A stretch of 64,000 bases of DNA from Myxococcaceae bacterium (GTDB lineage Bacteria; Myxococcota; Myxococcia; Myxococcales; Myxococcaceae): the NCBI GenBank assembly GCA_016926755.1, contig JAFGNZ010000075.1:1-64000 (forward strand). Reading direction: 5' to 3'. Below are positions 4,967 through 31,541 of the stretch, piece after piece. The position numbers and the translations under genes are program-made. The notes beneath the pieces are model-generated. The model searched no databases. It was given only the letters and a program-made list of their open reading frames with translations, and was not told where the DNA came from. Position 1 is the first letter of the stretch; each line of letters begins with the position of its first letter.

Positions 4967-5923
4967 CTACGGACGCACGATAGCGTCCACCGGCACGGAA
5001 CGCTCGGGCGAGTACCCCCGGCGGCGGTTCTTCGCCCGCGAGAGGGCCAGGGAGAGCCCGGCCACCAGCACCACCACGGGCAGCACGGCCACCAGGTCCG
5101 TGGCGTAGTGGAAGCGCCCCGAGAGCGTCGCCACGATGAGGCCCATACCGGGCAGCAGCATGATCCAGAAGACCCGCCTCGCGAAGCGGAGCGCGTAGAA
5201 GAGCACCAGGAGCGTGGCCCCGGTGTGCCCCGAGGGGAAGCAGTCCCGGCTGAACACGGGGGTGCGCATCAGCGAGTCCAGAAACGGCGTCATGAGTGGC
5301 CCCGTGAGCGGCCCCGGGAAGGCGTCCAGGAGGAAGTAGCGCGGCCCGATCGCCGGCACCAGCACATAGGCCGAGTAGGTCAGCGTGAAGAAGACGCTGA
5401 GCCCCAACAGGTACTCATCGAAGGCCGTGATGCGCTTGTGGAGGTACAGCACGATCCCGAGCGTCAGGGCCCAGACGAAGTGGCCGTAGTAGCAGACCAT
5501 CAGCACGTCCTGGAGCCACGGCGGCACCGCGTTCGAGACCCACACCGAGACCTGGAAGCCGAACAGCCGCTCATCCAGCGCGGCGAGCTCCGCGTCCCGG
5601 AGGACGGGGTTGATGGCATCCACCAGCGGGTTGAGCAGCTCATGGCCCAACATCGCCACCGGCAGCAGCCAGAAGTCAGCCACCCACCCCAGCAGGCGAT
5701 TGCGAGGCCAGGTGGCCTGCAAGGTGCGGAGCACCAGGGGCCCCAGGGCGAACAGGGCGAAGCCCGCGGCGGAGGCAGGCGCCCCGGGAGCCCAGCGCGC
5801 CGGTCCCACGAGCAGCAGGGCCGCGATCGAGCAGGCGGCGACGATGACGAGATCCGCGCCCCGGAGGCGGACTTTCCGCGGGCTGTCGAGCAACCGCAGG
5901 CTCTCCATGGGCCAGGGGCTCAT
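4967..5923 (-). CDS. PAP2-superfamily membrane phosphatase / Aur1-like (IPC-synthase-like)
   Basis: CFPSGHTGATLLVL and GRFHYATDLVAVL PAP2 motifs; multiple TM helices; 4-bp overlap with downstream-coordinate MMPL gene start region. Confidence 0.85.
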   Translation of the reverse strand: MSPWPMESLRLLDSPRKVRLRGADLVIVAACSIAALLLVGPARWAPGAPASAAGFALFALGPLVLRTLQATWPRNRLLGWVADFWLLPVAMLGHELLNPLVDAINPVLRDAELAALDERLFGFQVSVWVSNAVPPWLQDVLMVCYYGHFVWALTLGIVLYLHKRITAFDEYLLGLSVFFTLTYSAYVLVPAIGPRYFLLDAFPGPLTGPLMTPFLDSLMRTPVFSRDCFPSGHTGATLLVLFYALRFARRVFWIMLLPGMGLIVATLSGRFHYATDLVAVLPVVVLVAGLSLALSRAKNRRRGYSPERSVPVDAIVRP

Positions 5924-17063: not shown

Positions 17064-17735
17064 TCATCCACCGCGCAGCGCCAGCGAGACCGCCAGGCAG
17101 CCCTGCTCGGTTCGCGACGTGGGAGGCTGGCGCATGGAGAGGAAGAGGTAATGCGGCGCCTGCGGATGTTCACCCTCCACCTGGAGATCTCCCTCCACCA
17201 GCAACACCCCCGCGCGCAGCGGGCTCAGCGGCCAGGGGCAGCTCGCCCCCGGCTGCATGCGGATCCAGGTCAGGGCCTGCCCTGGCTGGGCCTCCGCCAG
17301 CTGCAGCACGTGCACGCCCGCGGCCACCTCCGCCCAGCCGGACTCGACAGGCCGCTGCTTCGCCAGCCGCTCCATGTCCCCCCTCAGCATGAGGAAGCGC
17401 TCGACGAGCGCCACCATGTCCTCGAGCTGGAAGGGCTTGGCCAGGATCGCGTCCGCCTGGAGGGGCTGCAGCGCCTGCCGGATCTCCTCCTCCTGGGCCG
17501 CGCTGACGATCACCACGGGCTGGAGCCGGCGCCGGGCCGCCTCCAGGATGGTGCGCCCGCCCTGGGCCTTTCCCGTGATGCGCAGGTCCGTCAGGACCAG
17601 CTCGAAGCGGTCCTCCCGAAGCGCCGCCAGGGCCGCGTCCACCGAGCCGGCCGCGCGCACCTCCGCCAGCTCGGCGAGCACGTCCCCCATGCCCTCGCGC
17701 AGGCTCGCGTCGTCCTCGACCAGCAGCACCTTCAT
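17064..17735 (-). CDS. response regulator receiver domain fused to cupin-like C-terminal domain
   Basis: MKVLLVEDDASLREG ... VLTDLRITG ... ILAKPF; C-terminal WIRMQPGASCPWPLSPLRAGVLLVEGDLQVEGE. Confidence 0.85.
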   Translation of the reverse strand: MKVLLVEDDASLREGMGDVLAELAEVRAAGSVDAALAALREDRFELVLTDLRITGKAQGGRTILEAARRRLQPVVIVSAAQEEEIRQALQPLQADAILAKPFQLEDMVALVERFLMLRGDMERLAKQRPVESGWAEVAAGVHVLQLAEAQPGQALTWIRMQPGASCPWPLSPLRAGVLLVEGDLQVEGEHPQAPHYLFLSMRQPPTSRTEQGCLAVSLALRGG

Positions 17736-17819
17736 GGGGTTCCTCCCGCCGGGTGCCGGAACCCAGCGTCCCGGGCGCGCCCCCGGGGGCCACGCGACGC
17801 GCACAGCCCGCCTTCCGTA

Positions 17820-17905
17820 TGGCCCTCCCCGGACTCGAACCGGGACGCGGGGTCAGCCGCAGCGGATTTTGAGTCCGCCTCGTCTACCAATTTCGACAGA
17901 GGGCC
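17820..17905 (-). tRNA. tRNA-Leu (anticodon CAA)
   Basis: GGCCCTCTGTCGAAATTGGTAGACGAGGCGGACTCAAAATCCGCTGCGGCTGACCCCGCGTCCCGGTTCGAGTCCGGGGAGGGCCA with long variable arm. Confidence 0.95.
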
Positions 17906-18005: not shown

Positions 18006-18755
18006 ATGTACAACCTTCTCATTGCCCTGGCCGTAGGCATCGCGATCGCACTGGGCGTCAAGCTTGCGGGCTTCTCCATCTGGGCCGGCATCGTCCCTGG
18101 CATCCTCGCCTTCTTCATCACCTTCATCCTCCTGGCCCGCTGGGTCTCCAAGCGCGTCCAGGTCCTCATGGAGTCTGTCCAGAAGGAGTTCCAGGGCCAG
18201 GCCGCCAACCAGAAGGAGGCCCTCCAGCGCGTGGATCGCGCCGTGAAGATCCTCGAGCAGGGCCTGGTCTACGACAAGTGGCAGATCATGGTCGGCCCGG
18301 AGATCCATGCCCAGATCGGCATGCTCAAGTACATGGCCAAGGATCTGGACGGCGCCTCGGTCCACTTCTCCAAGTCCAGCCCGCGCAACTACATGGCCAA
18401 GGCCATGCAGGGCGCCCTGCACTACCAGCGCAAGGAGCAGCCGGCCATGGAGGCCGCCTTCGAGGCCGCCGTGAAGACGGGCAAGAAGGAGTCCATCGTC
18501 TGGGCCGTGTATGCCTGGTGCCTGGTGCAGCTCAAGGAAAAGGACAAGGCCCTGCGCGTGCTCGCCCGCGCCGTGGAGACCAACCCCTCGGACGAGAAGC
18601 TCAAGTCCAGCCTCAGCCAGCTGCAGAACGACAAGCGGCTCAAGATGAAGCCCTACGAGCCCACCTGGTGGCAGTTCGGGCTCGAGGCTCCGCCCACGCC
18701 CGTCATGGGCGGCGGAGGGGGCGGGCGCCGCGTGCAGTTCATTACCCGACGCTAG
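18006..18755 (+). CDS. membrane-anchored TPR-like hypothetical protein
   Basis: two N-terminal TM helices then helical repeats (WAVYAWCLVQLKEKDKALRVLARAVETNPSDEKL). Confidence 0.75.
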   Translation: MYNLLIALAVGIAIALGVKLAGFSIWAGIVPGILAFFITFILLARWVSKRVQVLMESVQKEFQGQAANQKEALQRVDRAVKILEQGLVYDKWQIMVGPEIHAQIGMLKYMAKDLDGASVHFSKSSPRNYMAKAMQGALHYQRKEQPAMEAAFEAAVKTGKKESIVWAVYAWCLVQLKEKDKALRVLARAVETNPSDEKLKSSLSQLQNDKRLKMKPYEPTWWQFGLEAPPTPVMGGGGGGRRVQFITRR

Positions 18756-19146
18756 CCCTGCACCCGCGCCCCATCATTCGTTCTCCGGAGCACGGGAATT
18801 CCTACCGGATCGCGACTTCCTCTGCGGGTACGTCTTCCAGCCGAGGTAAGACGGAGGATGTAGAGGGCGGCGCAACCGCCTGAAAACACTCCGGCCGTCT
18901 GGTTCTGTTCAGGGCATGCGGCTTGCTCCCCCGTCCACCACGCTGCTTCGGCGCGCGGTGGAAAAAGAGACGGGCGGACTTGGCAGCCGGGGGGCTCGGG
19001 TGAAGGTTGCGGAGGTCAGCGAGTGCTCGCAGCGGGCGGTGGCGGAGGCGCCAGGGGCGCGGGGGCGACTGGGGCACTCGTCAGGGCGTGGCGCTCGAGA
19101 TCTTCGGCCTGCCACTTCACGGCAGGCCTGCGCAACGGAGCGGTGC

Positions 19147-20112
19147 ATGGAACGGCGCGGCCACGGCAGTGAACGGGCCCTCATCCTCATCATCGAGGAC
19201 GATGCGGGGGTGCGAGACAGCCTCGCGGATCTGCTGGTCGCGCGGTTCGAGGTGCTGACCGCGGGAGACGCGGGGGCCGGGGTGGAGCTGGCCCGGGAGC
19301 ACCAACCGGATCTCATCCTCCTGGATCGCTTCCTGCCCAGCGGGGATGGGCTGGCGGTGCTGGAGACCCTCCAGGGGGACGTGCGCACGGACGCCGTGCC
19401 CGTCATCTTCCTCACGGGAGACGCGGACGAGGCCACCCTGGAGAAGTGCCTGGAGATGGGGGCGGTGGACTTCATCCACAAGCCGGCCAGCGCCCGCGAG
19501 CTGCTGGCCCGCATCGACCGGGCCCTGCGCCAGAGCGAGACGCAGCACCGGCTACGGGTGCTGGCCCAGACGGACGCGCTCACGGGCCTTGCCAACTTCA
19601 GATCGCTCACGCTGCGGATGGAGGAGGAGTTCCGGCGCGCCAGCCGCTACCAGTACCCGCTCTCCGTGGTGGTGATCGATCTGGACCACCTGAAGGCCAT
19701 CAACGACGGGATGGGGCATGACGTCGGCAACCGGGCCATCCTGGCGCTCGCCGCGCACCTGAAGAGCAACCTGCGCGAGTCGGACTTCGCGGCCCGCTTC
19801 GGCGGGGACGAGTTCGTCGCCCTGCTGCCACACCAGACGGCCATGGAGGCGGCGGCCTTCGCGGAGCGCATCCGCGCGGGGCTGCGCAACGTCACCGTAC
19901 AACGCAGTGATGGACGGCCGGCTCCTTTCGGGCTGAGCGTGAGCGTGGGCATCGCCGACCACTCGCTGAGCGCGCCGCGGGAGAGCACCGAGGCGCTGCT
20001 GAAGGCGGCGGATGCGGCGCTGTACGTGGCCAAGCGCGAGGGGCGGGATCGGGTGGTGGTGTACGGCGCGACCATGCCAGGCCCTCCTCCGGTGGTGGCG
20101 CAGCGGCACTGA
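19147..20112 (+). CDS. response regulator-GGDEF diguanylate cyclase
   Basis: LILIIEDDAGVRDS, LILLDRFLPSGDG receiver motifs; ARFGGDEFVALLP active site. Confidence 0.92.
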   Translation: MERRGHGSERALILIIEDDAGVRDSLADLLVARFEVLTAGDAGAGVELAREHQPDLILLDRFLPSGDGLAVLETLQGDVRTDAVPVIFLTGDADEATLEKCLEMGAVDFIHKPASARELLARIDRALRQSETQHRLRVLAQTDALTGLANFRSLTLRMEEEFRRASRYQYPLSVVVIDLDHLKAINDGMGHDVGNRAILALAAHLKSNLRESDFAARFGGDEFVALLPHQTAMEAAAFAERIRAGLRNVTVQRSDGRPAPFGLSVSVGIADHSLSAPRESTEALLKAADAALYVAKREGRDRVVVYGATMPGPPPVVAQRH

Positions 20113-20158: not shown

Positions 20159-21889
20159 ATGAGCGGAAGCAGGCTGGTGGGCGGTTCGAGGGTGGCGGTG
20201 ATCGGCGGGGGCGTGGCCGGCGCGGGGCTGGCCGCCTCCCTCCTCTTCAATGGACGGGCCCGAGGGATCGTGCTGGACGTGCGGGTGTATGCGCGAGGGA
20301 GCCCGGACAGCGTGCCGCCTCCGGTGGTGCTGACACCCGAGTGTCGCTCGCGCATGGCCGCGCTGGGCTGCCGCGTCCCGCTGGACTGGCGCGCGCACGA
20401 GCTTCGCGGGGTGGAGATCCTCGCCCAGGGGCGCAGGGAGCTGCTGCCCGCGCCTCCCGGCGGGCTGTGGGTGGTGGATGGCTGGCCGCAGGGCCAGGGG
20501 GGGCTCGAGGTGGTGCGCGAGGCGCTCATCACCGCCGCCACGACTCAGGGGGCCCGGTTCGTGAGCCGCCATGTCGAGCGCGTGGAGCACCAACTCCCCG
20601 CGCCGGATGCGCCGGCCGCGGTGCGCAGCTGCGGTCCGCTGGTCGTCCGGGCGCAGGGCAGCGGCGAGCGCTTCCACGCGGTGGCCCTGGCGACGGGGGC
20701 GGGAGGCTCGCTCGGGGAGGCCTTCTTCCCTGGCTTCCGCCCGGCGCCCACCGTGCCCGCCGTGCAGGCGAGGATTCGCCAGGGCACCTCGCGGCTGAAC
20801 CTCTCGCCGCTGGCCCGGCTGTGGCTCGCTCCCCTGCCGGCGGTGGATGGCCTGTTCCTGCTGCCGGGCTCCCACTCGGTCTTCGCGCTCGCCTTCGGGC
20901 CGGCGGTGACGCCGTCGGATCTGTGCCAGGCGCTGATGATGGCGGCGCGGGATGGGCTCCTGGAGGAAGGCTTCGAGGTGTCGGCGCTGGAGACGACACG
21001 GCTGCCCTTCGGGCCGGGGCGCTCGCTGGTGGCGCCGGGGCAGCTCGCCGTGGGGGCGGCGGCGCTCGGGCACCCGCTGCAGATCGGGCTGTCGGAGACG
21101 CTGGCCACGTGCAGCCGCGCCGCGGTGGGGCTGCTGGATGCGGGGCTGGAGGCGTCCGCCCTGGAGCGCCGCTACGTCCGCGAGGGGCTCTCCGAGCTGC
21201 TGGAGGATGCCTCGGCGGGGGCGCGCTCCATCGCCTGGCTGCGGCGAGCGGGGCGCCGGGCGCCAGCGGCGTTCCTGGCGGCGCGCCGGAGGGGCTCGGT
21301 GGGTGGGGTGTACAGCGGCGGCGTGCTCGGGCTGGCCGCCCCTACCCCGCTGGCGCTGCTGGCTTCGGCGCGCTGGGCGGGGATGCGCGAGGTGGTGGGC
21401 TCCTGGCTGCGGATGACGGTGGAGCCGGTGCCCACGGCCATTCCCTCGCTGGAGCCGGACCTCTACTACGTCGTGGATGACGATCCGGACGCCCGCGAGG
21501 CGCTGACGCAGCTCCTGGAGTCCACGGGCGCGACCGTGGTGTCCTTCGCGGACGAGCTGGCGCTGTTCTGCGCGGTGGCGCGACGGCCGCCCACGGCGAT
21601 CCTGCTGGATGTGGTGCTGCACTGGGTGGACGGACTGCGGCTGGCCGAGGGGCTCAAGCAGCACCCGCTCACGCGGCACACGCGGGTGGTGGTGATGAGC
21701 GGGCTGAACCGGCCGCACATCCGACAGCGGGCGTTGGACGCGGGCGCGGAGGCCTTCCTCCCCAAGCCGGTGGATCCGGAGCGGCTGCTGCGGCTGTTGA
21801 TGGGCCGCGACACCGAGGCTCCGCGCTCGACGCCGGCCCGGCCCTCGGAGGGCGCCTCGGACGCGGAGTCCGGCCGCTACGCCTCCTGA
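20159..21889 (+). CDS. FAD-dependent oxidoreductase fused to C-terminal receiver (REC) domain
   Basis: N-term VAVIGGGVAGAGLAASLL dinucleotide-binding motif; C-term YYVVDDDPDAREAL ... ILLDVVLHWVDG ... FLPKPVD. Confidence 0.87.
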   Translation: MSGSRLVGGSRVAVIGGGVAGAGLAASLLFNGRARGIVLDVRVYARGSPDSVPPPVVLTPECRSRMAALGCRVPLDWRAHELRGVEILAQGRRELLPAPPGGLWVVDGWPQGQGGLEVVREALITAATTQGARFVSRHVERVEHQLPAPDAPAAVRSCGPLVVRAQGSGERFHAVALATGAGGSLGEAFFPGFRPAPTVPAVQARIRQGTSRLNLSPLARLWLAPLPAVDGLFLLPGSHSVFALAFGPAVTPSDLCQALMMAARDGLLEEGFEVSALETTRLPFGPGRSLVAPGQLAVGAAALGHPLQIGLSETLATCSRAAVGLLDAGLEASALERRYVREGLSELLEDASAGARSIAWLRRAGRRAPAAFLAARRRGSVGGVYSGGVLGLAAPTPLALLASARWAGMREVVGSWLRMTVEPVPTAIPSLEPDLYYVVDDDPDAREALTQLLESTGATVVSFADELALFCAVARRPPTAILLDVVLHWVDGLRLAEGLKQHPLTRHTRVVVMSGLNRPHIRQRALDAGAEAFLPKPVDPERLLRLLMGRDTEAPRSTPARPSEGASDAESGRYAS

Positions 21890-21929: not shown

Positions 21930-22826
21930 TCAGCCCCCCAGGCTTCGCAGTGCGTCGTACGGCGGGGCCACGTGCACCGCCCCGGCTTCCTTGCGGAACC
22001 ACGTGAGCTGGCGCTTGGCGTACCGGCGCGTCTCCCGCGCCGTGTCCTGGATCGCCTCCTCCAGGGTCATCCGGCCCTCGACGACCGCGCGCGCCTGCAC
22101 GTACCCCACGCTCCGCATGGGCGCTGCCTCCGCATACCCGCGGGCCAGGAGCTCCCGCGCCTCCTCCACGAGCCCCCGCGCGAACATCGCCTCCGTGCGC
22201 GCGGTGATGGTGCGGTAGAGCTGCTCCCGCGGCGGGGCCAGCACGAACATCCGGAACGGATACCGGTCCGGCGCGAAGCCGTGCTCCCGGCGCCACTGCG
22301 AGGCCGGAATCCCTGTCTGGGCGTGGATCTCCAGCGCGCGGATGACTCGAACCAGATCCTGGCTCGGCAGCTTCGCCGCCGTCTCCGGATCCACCTGGGC
22401 GAGCTTGCGGTGGACGGCCTCCCGGCCCTCCGCGACCGCGAGCGCCTCCAGCGAGGCCCGGAGCGCCGGATCCGCCCCCGGGGCCTCCACCACCCCGTGC
22501 AGCAGGATCCGGAGGTAGAGCCCCGTGCCTCCCACGACGAACACGGGGCGCCCGCGCGCGGAGATCTCCTCGATCGCCGCGTCCGCCCGCCGCTGGTACT
22601 CCGCCGCCGAGAACGGCTCGAGCGGATCCACCACGGAGATGAGGTGATGTGGCACCGCGGCCAGCTCCTCGGGGGAGGGCTTGGCCGTGCCGATGTCGAA
22701 GGCGCGGTACACCTGTTGGGAGTCCGCGTTGACGATCTCGCCACCGGCACGGAGGGCAAGCTCCACGGCGAGGCCCGTCTTCCCCGAGGCTGTCGGGCCA
22801 GCGATGACGGTGAGCTGCGGCTTCAC
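21930..22826 (-). CDS. miaA: tRNA dimethylallyltransferase
   Basis: TVIAGPTASGKTGLAVELA, EIVNADSQQVYRAFDIGTAKPS, RRYAKRQLTWFRKE. Confidence 0.96.
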   Translation of the reverse strand: MKPQLTVIAGPTASGKTGLAVELALRAGGEIVNADSQQVYRAFDIGTAKPSPEELAAVPHHLISVVDPLEPFSAAEYQRRADAAIEEISARGRPVFVVGGTGLYLRILLHGVVEAPGADPALRASLEALAVAEGREAVHRKLAQVDPETAAKLPSQDLVRVIRALEIHAQTGIPASQWRREHGFAPDRYPFRMFVLAPPREQLYRTITARTEAMFARGLVEEARELLARGYAEAAPMRSVGYVQARAVVEGRMTLEEAIQDTARETRRYAKRQLTWFRKEAGAVHVAPPYDALRSLGG

Positions 22827-24350: not shown

Positions 24351-25337
24351 ATGACTCGCCTTCCGATCCTGCTCCTTGCCGCGCTGCTCGCCCCCAGCGC
24401 CTCCGCGGCCGAGACCCTCACCCTCTACTCCGGCCGCAATGAGCGCCTCGTGGGGCCGCTCTACAAGGCGTTCACCCAGAAGACGGGCATCCAGGTGAAG
24501 GTGCGCTACGGCGAGACGCCGCAGCTCGCCGCCACGCTCCAGGAGGAAGGGGCGAAGACGCCGGCGGACGTGTTCATCGCCCAGGACGCGGGGGCGCTCG
24601 GGGCGCTGGCGCGCGCAGGACAGCTGCAGCCCCTCCCGAAGGAGCTGCTGGACAAGGTCGACGCGCGCTTCCGCTCGCCCGAGGGCCTGTGGGTGGGCCT
24701 CAGCGGCCGGGCCCGCGTGGTGGCCTACAACACGAACAAGGTGAAGCCGGACGCGCTGCCCAAGAGCATCCTCGGGTTCACGGATCCGAGCTGGAAGGGC
24801 CGCATCGGCTGGGCCCCCACGAATGCCTCCTTCCAGGCCTTCGTCACGGCGCTGCGGCTCCTGAAGGGCGACGCGGCGGCGAAGCAGTGGCTGGAGGGCA
24901 TCAAGGCCAACAAGCCGCGCGCCTACAAGAACAACGCGGCCATCATCGAGGCGCTGGGGCGCGGTGAGATCGACGTGGGCTTCGTCAACCACTACTACCT
25001 GTACGGCGCCAACAAGAAGCGGAGCGAGCCGCTGCCGGTGGCCAACCACTTCGTCGCCGCCGGAGATCCCGGCGCGCTGGTGAATGTCGCGGGCGTCGGG
25101 CTGCTGAAGGGCTCGAAGAAGACCGAGGCGGCGCTCAAGCTCGTCGCGTTCCTGCTGGACGCGGAGGCGCAGCGGCACTTCGCGAAGGAGACCTTCGAGT
25201 ATCCGCTGGTGCCGGGCGTGGAGGCCGCTCCGGCGCTGCCGGCGCTGAGCCAGGTGGGCTCTCCGGACCTCGATCTGTCGAAGCTCGAGGATCTGCGAGG
25301 GACGCTCAAGCTCCTGCAGGAGACCGGCGTCCTCTAG
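24351..25337 (+). CDS. Fe(III) ABC transporter substrate-binding protein (FbpA/FutA-like)
   Basis: LTLYSGRNERLVGPLYKAFTQKTGIQVKVRYG ... GEIDVGFVNHYYLY. Confidence 0.9.
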   Translation: MTRLPILLLAALLAPSASAAETLTLYSGRNERLVGPLYKAFTQKTGIQVKVRYGETPQLAATLQEEGAKTPADVFIAQDAGALGALARAGQLQPLPKELLDKVDARFRSPEGLWVGLSGRARVVAYNTNKVKPDALPKSILGFTDPSWKGRIGWAPTNASFQAFVTALRLLKGDAAAKQWLEGIKANKPRAYKNNAAIIEALGRGEIDVGFVNHYYLYGANKKRSEPLPVANHFVAAGDPGALVNVAGVGLLKGSKKTEAALKLVAFLLDAEAQRHFAKETFEYPLVPGVEAAPALPALSQVGSPDLDLSKLEDLRGTLKLLQETGVL

Positions 25338-25358
25338 GCCGGAGCTCGAGAGCCCCGA

Positions 25359-26924
25359 ATGTCCCGTCGCCCCTCCAGGCCCTTGCTGGCCGCAGGGCTC
25401 GGGGTGGCCGCGATCACGCTGCTGCCTGCTGTCTACCTGCTCGTCCGCGCGGCGGAGGCCAGCTCGGAGTCCTGGGCCCTGCTCTTCCGGGCTCGAACGA
25501 TCTCGCTGCTGGGGAGCACCCTGGGGCTCGCCCTGGCGGTGACGCTCTGCGCGGCCACGCTCTCCCTGCCGCTGGCCTGGCTCACCGCCCGGACGGATCT
25601 CCCCGGGCGACGCGTGTGGACGGCGCTGCTCTGCCTGCCGCTCGCGCTGCCCACCTTCGTCAGCGGGTACGTGCTGCTGGCGGCCTTCGGCACGGGCGGC
25701 GCGTTGGAGGCTCCGCTGTCCCGGCTCGGCCTGCCCGTGCCTCCGGTGTACGGCTTCCCGGGGGCCCTGCTCGCGCTGACGCTCTCCACCTATCCGTACC
25801 TCTTCCTCGCGCTGCGCGCCGGGTTGCTCGCGCAGGATCCGGCGCTGCTGGAGAGCGCGCAGAGCCTCGGGCTGACGCCCGCACGGGCCTTCTGGCGCGT
25901 CACGGTGCCCCTGCTGCGCCCCGCCTTCGCCTCCGGCTCCCTGCTGGTCGGGCTCTACGTGCTGTCGGACTTCGGCGCCGTGGCCCTGGTCCAGTACGAC
26001 GCCTTCTCCCGCATCATCTATATGCAGTACGAAGGAGCGTATGATCGTGCCTACGCCGCGCTGCTCGGGCTGGCGCTGGTGACGGTGACGGTGCTTGTGC
26101 TCGCGCTGGAGGTCTGGGCCCGTGGCCGGGCCGGCTATCACCGCAGCGCCAAGGGCGCCTCCCGCGCCGCGCTGCCGGTCCGCCTGGGGCGCTGGCGACT
26201 GCCTGCGCTGGCCCTGTGCGGCGCAGTGGTGGCGCTCGGAGTCGGGCTGCCGGTGGGCATCCTCCTCTATTGGGCCCTGCGTGGCCTGGCGGATGGGGAG
26301 GCCGTGGTGCTGGGGCCCGCGGTGAACTCGGTGCTGGCCTCGGGGCTCGCCGCGGTGTTGTCCGTGGTGGCGGCGCTGCCGCTGGCCGTGCTGGGGGCGC
26401 GCTTCCCGGGGCGGTTCGCCACCGCGCTGGAGCGCAGCGCCTACGTGGGCTACGCGCTGCCGCCCATCGTCCTGGCCCTCTCGCTCGTCTTCTTCGGCAT
26501 CAACGTGGCGCCCTTCCTCTATGGAACGCTGGCCATGCTCCTGCTGGCCTACCTGGTGCGCTTCCTCCCGCAGGCGGTGGGCGCGCTGCGCACGGCCCTG
26601 CTCCAGATCTCCCCTCACCTCTCCGAGGTGGCGGCCACGCTGGGGCACCCTCCCCCTTCCGTCCTCGCCCGTGTCACCACGCCGCTGATGGCTCCGGGCC
26701 TGCTGGCGGGCGCGGCGCTCGTCTTCCTCACCGCCATGAAGGAGCTGCCCGCCACGCTGCTGCTGGCGCCCATCGGCTTCGACACGCTCGCCACGCGCGT
26801 CTGGAGCGCCACCGCGGAGGGGCAGTTCGCCCTGGCCGCCCCGCCCGCGCTGCTGCTGATGGCCGTCTCCGCGCTGGGCGTGGGCCTGCTGCTCTCCCAA
26901 GAGGAGCGCGCATACCCCGAGTAA
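25359..26924 (+). CDS. iron ABC transporter permease (FbpB-like, fused two-half permease)
   Basis: 521 aa, twelve-TM; SAQSLGLTPARAFWRVTVPLLRPA and VAATLGHPPPSVLARVTTPLMAPG EAA motifs. Confidence 0.92.
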   Translation: MSRRPSRPLLAAGLGVAAITLLPAVYLLVRAAEASSESWALLFRARTISLLGSTLGLALAVTLCAATLSLPLAWLTARTDLPGRRVWTALLCLPLALPTFVSGYVLLAAFGTGGALEAPLSRLGLPVPPVYGFPGALLALTLSTYPYLFLALRAGLLAQDPALLESAQSLGLTPARAFWRVTVPLLRPAFASGSLLVGLYVLSDFGAVALVQYDAFSRIIYMQYEGAYDRAYAALLGLALVTVTVLVLALEVWARGRAGYHRSAKGASRAALPVRLGRWRLPALALCGAVVALGVGLPVGILLYWALRGLADGEAVVLGPAVNSVLASGLAAVLSVVAALPLAVLGARFPGRFATALERSAYVGYALPPIVLALSLVFFGINVAPFLYGTLAMLLLAYLVRFLPQAVGALRTALLQISPHLSEVAATLGHPPPSVLARVTTPLMAPGLLAGAALVFLTAMKELPATLLLAPIGFDTLATRVWSATAEGQFALAAPPALLLMAVSALGVGLLLSQEERAYPE

Positions 26925-26946
26925 CGGGATAGTGTGCGCCCGCGCG

Positions 26947-28029
26947 ATGCCGCTGCTCTCGATCGACCAGATCACCCTCCGCTATACCGCCAGTGGCACC
27001 GCCGCGGTGGACGGGCTCTCCCTCGCGCTCGAGCCCGGTGAGACGGTGGCCCTGCTCGGCCCCTCCGGCTGCGGCAAGACGACGACGCTGCGCCTCGTCG
27101 CGGGCTTCGAGCGCCCGGAGGCTGGCCGCATCACGCTGGAGGAGCGCGTCCTCGTCGGCCCGGGCGTCTTCGTGCCACCGGATCAGCGCCGCGTGGGCAT
27201 GGTGTTCCAGGACTACGCCCTCTTCCCGCACCTGTCCGTGCTGGACAACGTCACCTTCGGGCTGGAGGCCCTGCCGCGCCGCGAGCAGGTGCCCCGCGCC
27301 CGCGCCATGCTGGAGCTGTTCGGGCTGGGCGGCTTCGAGGCGCGCATGCCGCACGCGCTCTCCGGCGGCCAGCAGCAGCGCGTGGCGCTGGCCCGGGCGC
27401 TGGCTCCGGGGCCTCGGGTGTTGCTGCTCGACGAGGCCTTCTCCAGCCTCGACGCCGCGCTGCGCGCCTCTACCCGGGTCGAGGTGCGCCGGGTGCTCAA
27501 GTCCCTGGGGACCACCGTGCTGCTCGTCACGCATGACCAGGCGGAGGCCATGGCCTTCGCGGATCGGCTGGCGGTGATGCGCGCCGGGAAGGTGGAGCAG
27601 ATCGGGACACCGGAGGCCATCTACACGGCGCCGCGCAACGCCTTCGTGGCGTGGTTCCTCGGGGGCACCAACCTGCTGCCGGGCAGCGCCTTCGGCAACG
27701 GCGCGCGGACGGTGCTCGGCGTCATCCCCCTGATGGGGACGGCGAAGGGCCAGGTCCTCCTGTCGCTGAGGCCGGAGGCCCTGAGGCTGGTGCCGGACAC
27801 GGACGCGGTGGCGCTGGGAGGTGCGCTGCGCGCGGAGGTGCTCTCGCGCGAGTTCCAGGGGCACGGCGTGGAGTTCACCGTGGGGTGCGGCGGCATGGAG
27901 TTGACGGTGCGCGGCGCGCCGGAGCTGCCGTTGGGTCCAGGCGACAGGGCGCGTCTGGAGGTGGTCGGCAAGGCCGTGGTGCTGGAGGACGCTCCGCCGG
28001 AGGCGGAGGCCCAGTCACGGCTTGAGTAG
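26947..28029 (+). CDS. ABC transporter ATP-binding protein (FbpC-like)
   Basis: LLGPSGCGKTTTLR, ALSGGQQQRVALARALAPGPRVLLLDEAFSSLD, TOBE-like C-terminus. Confidence 0.95.
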   Translation: MPLLSIDQITLRYTASGTAAVDGLSLALEPGETVALLGPSGCGKTTTLRLVAGFERPEAGRITLEERVLVGPGVFVPPDQRRVGMVFQDYALFPHLSVLDNVTFGLEALPRREQVPRARAMLELFGLGGFEARMPHALSGGQQQRVALARALAPGPRVLLLDEAFSSLDAALRASTRVEVRRVLKSLGTTVLLVTHDQAEAMAFADRLAVMRAGKVEQIGTPEAIYTAPRNAFVAWFLGGTNLLPGSAFGNGARTVLGVIPLMGTAKGQVLLSLRPEALRLVPDTDAVALGGALRAEVLSREFQGHGVEFTVGCGGMELTVRGAPELPLGPGDRARLEVVGKAVVLEDAPPEAEAQSRLE

Positions 28030-28163
28030 ATGGATGGCCCCCCTTTCGGGTGGCCCCAGCGGTACTCAGGCCGCCTTGGACCGTTCAGTCTGACGCAGGT
28101 AGCATCCAGGGGCATCTACCATGGCAAGCCGCAATCACTCGACATAGCCCTGGAAACCTCCAG

Positions 28164-29144
28164 ATGGTCCACTGCTCTCCGTTCCTCACGCTGCTCTCGC
28201 CAATTGTCGCGGCAATGCTTCTTTGCGGTTGTATGGATTGCGCAGCGAGAGATCCTCAACCAAGCAAAGACCCTGGATCCCATCAACCCCAAGAGTCGCT
28301 GGCCGAGAGTCTCGGCCTTATCGAAGAGCAAAGTCTGGAGCCTTATCGCTACCGTTTGAACAGGTTGGAGGGGGAGCTCGATACTGAAAACCGGTATCGG
28401 TCAACCGTTTTGATCAGACCCAACGGGCAACTCCAAGAAGAGGGAGAAGGGCGATGCAGTGGAGTCCTCATCAGCTCTCGCCTTGTCCTGACAGCGGGTC
28501 ATTGTGTGTGTAGTCGCCAGACTCGCGAATCTGGCGACATTCGTCATGTCGTCATTGATGGCTCAGCCTGCGCGACGACCGCGAACGTAGCGGTAGTAAC
28601 CTATCTTCCTACACTACCAGGAAACGATACTCACTATTGGCACCAAGACTACCGTGGCAAAGTACGACCCCACCCTGATCTCAAGATAACGCTTGATTCC
28701 AGTGGGGGGATGGTGTCGAGCAATGCGGATCTTGCAATGATCATTCTCGACACACCAGCACCGAGCGATCTGGAACCCACCGCACTGGCGGAGACGGATG
28801 TTGAAGCCAATGAGTCTATTGTCCTGGTCGGCTTTGGGCACGACAGCACATGGGCTGAGCTCCACGAAATGCGCCGCTTCAACAGGGAAATGGTCGCTGA
28901 GACCATGTCAAAGGGTGCTGTGAGGACATTGATGCAACAGTCCAACCCGACGGCAGACAATAATGATAGCGGTGGCCCATGTCTCCGCGAAACGAGCCAT
29001 GTCCCTGTTGTCGTCGGCATTTCAAGCAGAGGGCTGGGTGAGGGTTCAACCTTCACGAGCACACACGCCTACAAGGCGTGGATAGGCGAAGCACTCCGGC
29101 AAGCGTCCCGGGCAGACGCCGATTCAAGTCCGCGCTCTCCGTGA
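28164..29144 (+). CDS. trypsin-like (S1) serine protease, putative lipoprotein
   Basis: LTAGHCVC (His), NADLAMIILD (Asp), NNDSGGPC (Ser); hydrophobic N-terminus with Cys. Confidence 0.87.
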   Translation: MVHCSPFLTLLSPIVAAMLLCGCMDCAARDPQPSKDPGSHQPQESLAESLGLIEEQSLEPYRYRLNRLEGELDTENRYRSTVLIRPNGQLQEEGEGRCSGVLISSRLVLTAGHCVCSRQTRESGDIRHVVIDGSACATTANVAVVTYLPTLPGNDTHYWHQDYRGKVRPHPDLKITLDSSGGMVSSNADLAMIILDTPAPSDLEPTALAETDVEANESIVLVGFGHDSTWAELHEMRRFNREMVAETMSKGAVRTLMQQSNPTADNNDSGGPCLRETSHVPVVVGISSRGLGEGSTFTSTHAYKAWIGEALRQASRADADSSPRSP

Positions 29145-29197
29145 GCCGTGAACTTATTCAGTCACCTCAGTCATCTGCGCACACAGGGGAATGTCCC

Positions 29198-30238
29198 ATG
29201 ATCATCGCTGGATGTTGCCGTTGGCTCACGTGGCTGTGCGGCCTTTTGCTGCTACTGTCACCCAGCGCATGTGGAACCGGATCTTCCTCCCTGGAAGGAT
29301 CGCGGACTCTGGTCCCAGATATGGATATGGGCAGCCTCTTGTCCATATATCCAGGACCGGCTGATGTCGCGAATCGCTATGCATCCAGTGTCATCGTGAT
29401 ACGGACGACTGATGGCAGAGATGAGCCTGAAGGTGGTTGCAGCGGCGTTCTCATTGATCCGAGTCTCGTCCTGACTGCAGGGCACTGTGTCTGCGAGATG
29501 CGAACACTCCGTACCGCGGACGACAAGGCTCTGGTCGGAAGGAGATTGGAAGAAGCTGTGCCCTCCGCCAAAGGCAGCGAGCGTGCGAGAGAAGACCCCG
29601 CCAGAACGTGGCGCGAGGATGTCTTGGCGAGGTCCCATGCAGCCATTGACGGATCTCAATGTTCCATGGGGGCGCGCGTGCTTGCTCTTGAGTATGTCTC
29701 GCCGGCCATGAGACCTGACTACCGGTCTTACCGCGGAGTTGCGATCAGGCCTCATCCCAGGCTTCTGATTCTTGATGGAACCGATGGGAAAGGGCTGTTC
29801 AGAGAGGCCGACCTCGCCATCATTCGATTGGAGAAGCCCGTGAACGAGAACCTCCGAACCATCAAACTGCCACAAGCAGAGATTCAGCGCGAGGAGCCGA
29901 TTATCATGGTTGGATTCGGTCGGGGTGAGACCGATTACGCCAATGCGAAGTTCGGATATCGCCATGTCGGAGAGGGCCGAGTGACAAAAGTCGAGCGATT
30001 GGCTTCAGGCGGCATGAAGTTCGCCGCTGGAGGAAGCGCGGTCGACGGGGAGCTCTTCTCCGTGCTTCATGGCGGGGACAGCGGTGGGGGCGCGTTCAAG
30101 AAGGATGATGACACCGTGCTTGTAGGTATCGCAAGTTCGCTATCAGCAGATAGAAAGACTTCTATCTATACGAGCACGTATCCCTACAAGAAATGGCTGG
30201 AGGGTGAGAAGGCGGCTGCGCGCCAGACTTCTCCATAG
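29198..30238 (+). CDS. trypsin-like (S1) serine protease, putative lipoprotein; tandem paralog
   Basis: signal + lipobox LSPSAC; LTAGHCVC, EADLAIIRLE, GGDSGGGAF. Confidence 0.87.
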   Translation: MIIAGCCRWLTWLCGLLLLLSPSACGTGSSSLEGSRTLVPDMDMGSLLSIYPGPADVANRYASSVIVIRTTDGRDEPEGGCSGVLIDPSLVLTAGHCVCEMRTLRTADDKALVGRRLEEAVPSAKGSERAREDPARTWREDVLARSHAAIDGSQCSMGARVLALEYVSPAMRPDYRSYRGVAIRPHPRLLILDGTDGKGLFREADLAIIRLEKPVNENLRTIKLPQAEIQREEPIIMVGFGRGETDYANAKFGYRHVGEGRVTKVERLASGGMKFAAGGSAVDGELFSVLHGGDSGGGAFKKDDDTVLVGIASSLSADRKTSIYTSTYPYKKWLEGEKAAARQTSP

Positions 30239-30254
30239 TCTAGAGGCGCCAGCT

Positions 30255-31541
30255 TCAATGCGCGGCGCGCACGGTCTGCGCCACTTCGTTGAGCGCCACG
30301 GGGATCGGCTCACCGCCCGCCATCGGCTTGAGCTGCCCCTTCCCGCTCTCCCGCTCCGTCTGGCCGAGCACCAGCGCGAAGCGCGCGCGCGTCTTGTCCG
30401 CTCGCTTCATCTGGCTCTTCAGGCTCCCGCCGCGCGTGTCGAACTCCACCCGCAGCCCCTCCCGACGCAGCCGGCTGGCCAGCTTGAAGGCCTCGTCCGC
30501 CGAGCCCTCGTCCGCCACCGCGATGAACACGTCCGGAGGCGGCGCGTACTTCTGCCCGCCCTCCTTCAGCAGCAGCGTCAGCCGATCCAGCCCCAGCCCG
30601 AACCCCACCGCCGGCAGATCCGGCCCGCCCAGGCTCTTCAGCAGCTTGTCGTACCGGCCACCCCCGCCCACCGTGCTCGCCGTCCCCAGCGCTGGGTGCG
30701 CCGCGATGAACTCGAACGTCGTGCGCGTGTAGTAGTCCAGCCCGCGCACGATCCGCGGGTTGATCACGTACCGCACCCCCAGCACGTCCAGCTTGCGCCG
30801 CACGTCCCCGAAGTGCGCCTTGCACGGCTCACACAGGAACTGGAGGATGTCCGGCGCCGCCTGCACCACCGCCTGGCACTTCGCGTTCTTGCAGTCCAGC
30901 ACCCGCATCGGGTTGCTCTCGAGCCGCCGCTGGCAGTCCTCGCACAGCTCCGCCCGGTGCGCCGTCAGGTGCTCCACCAGCTTCTGCTGGAACACCGGCC
31001 GACACGCGTCATCCCCCAGCGAGTTCAGGTTGAGCGACACTTCCTTCAGCCCCAGCGCCTCCAGGAGCTGCACCACCATGTCCATCAGCTCCACGTCCTG
31101 CGCCGCCTCGCGCGAGCCGATCGCCTCCGCCCCGATCTGGAAGAACTGCCGGTAGCGGCCCGTCTTCATCCGCTCGTACCGGAACATCGGGCCGATGTAG
31201 TACCAGCGCGTCAGCGGCTCCTGGTTCGCCACCGAGTGCTCGATGTACGCGCGCACCGCCGGCGCCGTGCCCTCGGGGCGCAGGGACAGGCTGCGGCCCG
31301 CCTTGTCCTCGAAGGTGTACATCTCCTTGCCGACGATGTCCGTCTCCTCGCCCACGCTGCGCACGAAGAGCGCCGTGTCCTCCACCATCGGCGTGCGGAT
31401 CTCCCCGTAGCCGAACCGGGCGAACAGCTCGCGCGCCGTGCGCTCCACGTGCTGCCACGTCTCCACGGGCGCCATCTCCCCGCCCAGCTCCCCAGGCAGG
31501 AGATCGTTCATCCCCTTCACACCGGCGATCTTCTGGCTCAC
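30255..31541 (-). CDS. hisS: histidyl-tRNA synthetase
   Basis: VKGMNDLLPGE, SLRPEGTAPAVRAYIEH, RGLDYYTRTTFEF, VGGGGRYDKLLKSLGGPDLPAVGFGLGLDRL; GTG start overlaps psd stop. Confidence 0.96.
   Translation of the reverse strand: MSQKIAGVKGMNDLLPGELGGEMAPVETWQHVERTARELFARFGYGEIRTPMVEDTALFVRSVGEETDIVGKEMYTFEDKAGRSLSLRPEGTAPAVRAYIEHSVANQEPLTRWYYIGPMFRYERMKTGRYRQFFQIGAEAIGSREAAQDVELMDMVVQLLEALGLKEVSLNLNSLGDDACRPVFQQKLVEHLTAHRAELCEDCQRRLESNPMRVLDCKNAKCQAVVQAAPDILQFLCEPCKAHFGDVRRKLDVLGVRYVINPRIVRGLDYYTRTTFEFIAAHPALGTASTVGGGGRYDKLLKSLGGPDLPAVGFGLGLDRLTLLLKEGGQKYAPPPDVFIAVADEGSADEAFKLASRLRREGLRVEFDTRGGSLKSQMKRADKTRARFALVLGQTERESGKGQLKPMAGGEPIPVALNEVAQTVRAAH

Follow-up and report, generated by a model that had tools for sequence, protein, structure and literature searches.

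In Myxococcus xanthus, dmxB and MXAN_3734 form a two-gene operon; its promoters are under developmental control, and MrpC represses them (PMC8844925). dmxB is necessary for the developmental rise in c-di-GMP, DmxB remains functional with the D60N substitution, so that phosphorylation of its receiver (REC) domain is dispensable for its function, and deletion of MXAN_3734 caused no developmental defect (PMC4877007). MXAN_3734 is a protein of 577 residues described as having 'no known domains' beyond REC (PMC8844925), and it was named in no further paper within the literature searched. Fusions of REC to metabolic enzymes, thioredoxin reductase among them, have been described before (PMC5847659). 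They are known in outline, and are almost unstudied.

Here we describe a fusion gene in a 64,000-nucleotide stretch of DNA from a Myxococcaceae bacterium (the window, whose positions are used throughout). The encoded protein resembles MXAN_3734 in its position behind dmxB, its length (576 residues, compared to 577) and its C-terminal REC domain, but whereas MXAN_3734 was published without other domains, we assign the N-terminal part, from a structural model, a group-A/GR2 flavoprotein fold whose cofactor site is altered. Like the mycobacterial type of REC–thioredoxin reductase (PMC5847659), it joins REC to a flavoprotein; that protein, however, belongs to another flavoprotein family and was described as a standard enzyme domain, while the window protein is GR2-like, its site is degenerate and its REC is C-terminal. 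It shares its overall fold (Z 27–28) with geranylgeranyl reductase-like and FixC/EtfX proteins (3oz2, 7koe) and with halogenases (Mpy16, PltA), but is only 15–17% identical to them, lacks the GD Asp and the usual β2 acid, and carries REC. Its REC domain is intact, as in REC-GGDEF proteins of the PleD/WspR/DmxB type, one of which is encoded by the neighbouring gene, but its output is something other than GGDEF. The gene itself is already known; the domain assignment and the analysis of the site appear to be new within the literature searched.

The fusion gene and its conservation

A single uninterrupted frame encodes the fusion (576 residues plus stop), and its immediate neighbours are as follows.

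18006..18755, forward strand: gene for a TPR protein, conserved upstream neighbour (Pfam, synteny)
19147..20112, forward strand: predicted dmxB ortholog, REC-GGDEF diguanylate cyclase with D60, I-site R210ESD and G219GDEF (Pfam, residue numbering, synteny)
20159..21889, forward strand: fusion gene, predicted MXAN_3734 ortholog, 576 residues, with an N-terminal GR2/group-A flavoprotein fold and C-terminal REC (ORF, Pfam, AlphaFold2, orthologs)
20183..21403, forward strand: predicted flavoprotein-fold domain, residues ~9–415 (AlphaFold2 model; VIA Z 28.4 to 3oz2 over model residues 8–413; hhalign)
21461..21802, forward strand: REC domain, residues ~435–548 (Pfam PF00072, E 3.6e-20)
21930..22826, reverse strand: miaA-like gene, conserved convergent downstream neighbour (synteny; name from reading the sequence)

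The earlier note on this DNA had placed a FAD motif and receiver motifs in one continuous ORF, and all of them are present where claimed: GGGVAGAG from residue 16 (nucleotide 20204), VVDDDPD from residue 438 (21470), ILLDVVL from residue 481 (21599) and LPKP from residue 534 (21758).

Full-length relatives were found down to ~35% identity in a search of 59 related genomes, and these matches were free of internal stops, except for a TAG in one genome (G035) that lies beyond the REC domain. A profile of the fold domain by itself detected this domain in 78 of 195 Myxococcota genomes. Leaving aside genes broken at contig ends and, in G045, a short fragment, every intact genome among the 78 has one copy, in a frame long enough for the fusion, and the 195 genomes held no REC-less homolog of the fold domain at E ≤ 1e-8. 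A wider contig scan returned at least 20 relatives; among the matches listed, all are Myxococcales/Myxococcaceae records, from Hyalangium, Archangium, Corallococcus, Myxococcus (including M. xanthus AM003), Pyxidicoccus and Citreicoccus.

The loci collected, from Myxococcaceae and related families, gave 52 distinct full-length fused proteins besides that of the window, and residue counts below refer to this set of 53. Three partial proteins at contig ends were left out, as was the match L028 (G039), which the domain profile failed to recover. A split gene or a frameshift, which the earlier note had named as evidence that would count against a fusion, is ruled out by the open frame in every intact ortholog; the partial copies (L025/L095/L096, L048 and G150) are at contig ends. 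The association of the two domains is far beyond chance, because both occur in one frame in every intact ortholog, and on this comparison the fusion is genuine and ancient. Both domains are, by rough Nei–Gojobori estimates, under purifying selection (dN/dS 0.16–0.23 for the fold domain and 0.08–0.18 for REC); the value for the fold domain rules out a decaying pseudo-domain.

Association with dmxB

The gene upstream of the fusion encodes a REC-GGDEF protein (Pfam GGDEF, 1.2e-40; REC, 1.9e-23) and has its last nucleotide at 20112, which leaves 46 bp to the ATG of the fusion, as reported earlier. The genetic link is stronger than was then inferred, as it is backed by conserved adjacency and a published operon. 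The common phosphorelay input that the earlier note suggested for the two genes is a weaker point; in M. xanthus, DmxB works without phosphorylation of its receiver (PMC4877007). D60, R210ESD and G219GDEF have the same numbering in the REC-GGDEF proteins of the window and of M. xanthus AM003, and match the published DmxB numbering of D60, R210 and G219 (PMC4877007). Judged by these residues, the upstream gene is the dmxB ortholog, and the fusion therefore corresponds to M. xanthus MXAN_3734. In AM003 (locus L038), the ORF starting at 4998 encodes 577 residues with a C-terminal REC. Position, length and the DmxB numbering, taken via strain AM003, clearly identify the fusion as the predicted ortholog of MXAN_3734.

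The gene order TPR–dmxB–fusion–miaA-like is kept throughout Myxococcaceae and into more distant families, with the fusion usually directly behind dmxB. The last gene of the four (window 21930..22826, reverse strand) is named for its product, which we take to be miaA-like from the sequence itself. In the loci compared, no metabolic partner gene is conserved beside the fusion, only signalling and housekeeping genes.

One lineage (f3; loci L081, L082 and L095) has the fusion without a dmxB neighbour. The genomes of this lineage contain no close relative of DmxB over the whole protein, the best having 37% identity, compared to 47–51% for the neighbouring gene elsewhere. The protein is therefore not simply an accessory of DmxB. 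As the fusion persists in f3 without its usual neighbour, its role predates the DmxB operon or reaches beyond it.

The region ahead of dmxB has conserved features of its own.

18912..18926, forward strand: conserved GGGCA-N6-TTGC element, σ54-like, 235–221 bp upstream of the dmxB start (sequence conservation)

Across the Myxococcaceae loci examined, this element is found ~211–251 bp ahead of dmxB. The M. xanthus copy stops 16 bases short of the developmental start site published at −213, a spacing slightly long for σ54. The leader also contains two further, strongly conserved blocks, TTGGCAGCCGGRGG (~−167) and YTTCGGCCTGCCA (−45), at 18980–18993 and 19102–19114 of the window (forward strand). 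No Rfam element scored above threshold at the locus, these two blocks included, and MrpC consensus sites upstream of dmxB were not found above chance in either L038 or the window.

Further upstream, 17064–17801 (reverse strand) encodes a second unusual receiver protein: a REC domain (4e-14) and, after it, a ChrR-type cupin-like domain whose match (2.5e-4) does not reach the curated cut-off. Most Myxococcaceae loci have this gene at the corresponding position. Next to it, at 17820–17905 (reverse strand), a weak Rfam match to tRNA-Sec was discarded, as ARAGORN reads the same stretch as tRNA-Leu (CAA). On the other side of the fusion, an apparent ABC-transporter operon (24351–28029) is followed by a stretch (~28030–31200) with weak coding signal and low or odd third-position GC.

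The N-terminal domain adopts a predicted flavoprotein fold

Sequence profiles gave a weak signal for the N-terminal part, in agreement with the structural one. In Pfam, the window protein matched only DAO, at E = 0.047 and below the cut-off, while some orthologs reached 2e-6 for DAO and 1e-5 for NAD_binding_9; no family-specific match of the fold domain exceeded its curated cut-off. Against PDB sequences, the alkylhalidase CmlS matched at E 0.004 (profile positions 10–179), and hhalign aligned the domain with same-genus flavoproteins at probabilities of 98.3 and 96.7. In an NCBIfam scan, the best 25 of 59 families were all driven by REC, and the likeness to TIGR02032 was seen at the level of the fold.

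The AlphaFold2 model, built from a 22-sequence alignment (pLDDT 83), matched hundreds of flavoproteins in Foldseek and VIA. The geranylgeranyl-reductase-like structure 3oz2 ranked top in Foldseek (E 4.2e-17), with kynurenine monooxygenases and others also at the top. VIA gave Z 28.4 to 3oz2 (351 residues, 3.3 Å), 28.1 to the EtfABCX subunit 7koe_C, and ~27 to halogenases. The WxWxIP motif of halogenases is absent from the window translation. We place the N-terminal ~415 residues as a divergent member of the group-A/GR2 (PHBH/GGR/halogenase) fold, because the matches of the predicted structure and the weak sequence profiles agree.

The cofactor site is altered

In the group-A/GR2 fold, the acid ending β2, normally Glu or Asp, contacts the ribose of the cofactor, and the Asp of the GD motif contacts the ribitol. 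The corresponding positions in the window are listed here.

20204..20221, forward strand: GxGxxG dinucleotide loop, residues 16–21, kept (G16 in 53/53, G18 in 53/53, G21 in 52/53)
20291..20293, forward strand: end of β2, residue 45, Ala in the window protein (acid in 15/53 orthologs)
21053..21064, forward strand: GD-motif position, residues 299–302, GAAA in the window protein (Asp in 1/53; profile alignment of GAAAL with GDAA)

The loop is complete in 52 of the 53 proteins and its glycines are kept down to ~30% identity. The β2 acid is replaced in 38 of 53. At the GD Asp, 32 proteins have Pro, 15 Ala (including that of the window), three Glu, and one each Thr, Ser and Asp; the profile alignment pairs LAVGAAALGHPLQIGLSETL in the window with AVGDAAAMWDPLSSSGIVKGL in a relative. 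As controls we used 40 flavoproteins of the same fold and genus, found with PF01494 and TIGR02032. The GD motif is kept in 39 of them, and an acid after β2 is visible in nearly all 40, although a pattern count gave 28/40, an undercount that missed several plain Glu and Asp residues. The predicted site is thus non-canonical, altered but not erased, and as the GxGxxG loop is kept, the domain may still bind a nucleotide. Loss of the GD Asp is no proof of lost flavin or of lost catalysis.

Is this a flavin-dependent enzyme, oxidoreductase or monooxygenase-like, with catalysis controlled through phosphorylation of REC, as the earlier note proposed? The flavoprotein half of that claim stands, as does the GxGxxG loop; the full-length fold, the purifying selection and the precedent of REC–thioredoxin reductase (PMC5847659) all speak for an enzyme. 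However, the GD Asp is gone from 52/53 proteins and the β2 acid from 38/53, compared to GD in 39/40 relatives from the same genus, so that of the degenerate FAD site named beforehand as counter-evidence about half is present. The missing WxWxIP motif, the want of any family-specific match above cut-off and the lack of a conserved metabolic partner alongside also argue against an enzyme. We consider this reading unlikely, although deserving of some weight; phosphorylation-controlled redox catalysis is possible but weakened.

At the other extreme, the N-terminal domain may be a pure scaffold without bound nucleotide, as the loss of two diagnostic FAD contacts might suggest. Unless a phosphate or dinucleotide is bound, however, the near-invariance of GxGxxG to ~30% identity is difficult to account for, and we regard a scaffold as very improbable.

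The receiver domain is complete

The match to Response_reg (PF00072) has E = 3.6e-20 and covers residues 438–545, or profile positions 3–108 of 111.

21608..21610, forward strand: predicted phosphoacceptor Asp484 (invariant, 53/53)

This match over the whole domain bears out the earlier description of an intact REC. D441, D442, D484, S514 and K536 are all invariant (53/53), and therefore this REC, with its complete site, should be a phosphoacceptor. It is the better conserved half of the fusion in the 53 proteins.

These properties also bear on a reversed arrangement, in which the fold domain is the input: a redox or metabolite sensor that would alter the phosphorylation of REC or its pairing, for example with the REC of DmxB, so that the protein would be a phosphate sink or heterodimer partner and not itself an effector. 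A C-terminal REC as in hybrid sensors, the stronger conservation of REC, and a REC-bearing neighbour in the same operon would fit, but the functional D60N variant of DmxB in M. xanthus (PMC4877007) argues against it, and we think this arrangement improbable.

Proposed function and implications

We tentatively favour a regulatory protein switched by phosphorylation, built on an altered flavoprotein fold with non-canonical dinucleotide binding and tied to DmxB and c-di-GMP signalling, a reading that falls somewhat short of an even chance. The N-terminal domain would no longer be a standard flavin oxidoreductase but a regulatory module, binding a dinucleotide (FAD or NAD(P)) non-canonically and probably without catalysis. 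Phosphorylation of D484 by a kinase would switch its conformation or partner binding, and the protein could then read a phosphorelay together with redox or nucleotide state, beside the c-di-GMP output of DmxB. We infer each of the elements: dinucleotide binding without standard flavin catalysis, the phosphorylation switch and the coupling to DmxB.

The fusion is single-copy, is widely conserved in one bacterial order and shares its transcript with a developmental diguanylate cyclase; its cofactor site has seemingly been repurposed. A gene with 'no known domains' becomes testable: whether its product holds FAD or NAD(P), what phosphorylation does to it, and what it does to DmxB. A bolder version, which we consider distinctly improbable, is that a former flavoenzyme has become a dinucleotide (redox) sensor that is gated by phosphorylation and modulates DmxB directly. 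If true, this sensor would tie the increase in c-di-GMP during myxobacterial development to the redox or nucleotide state of the cell.
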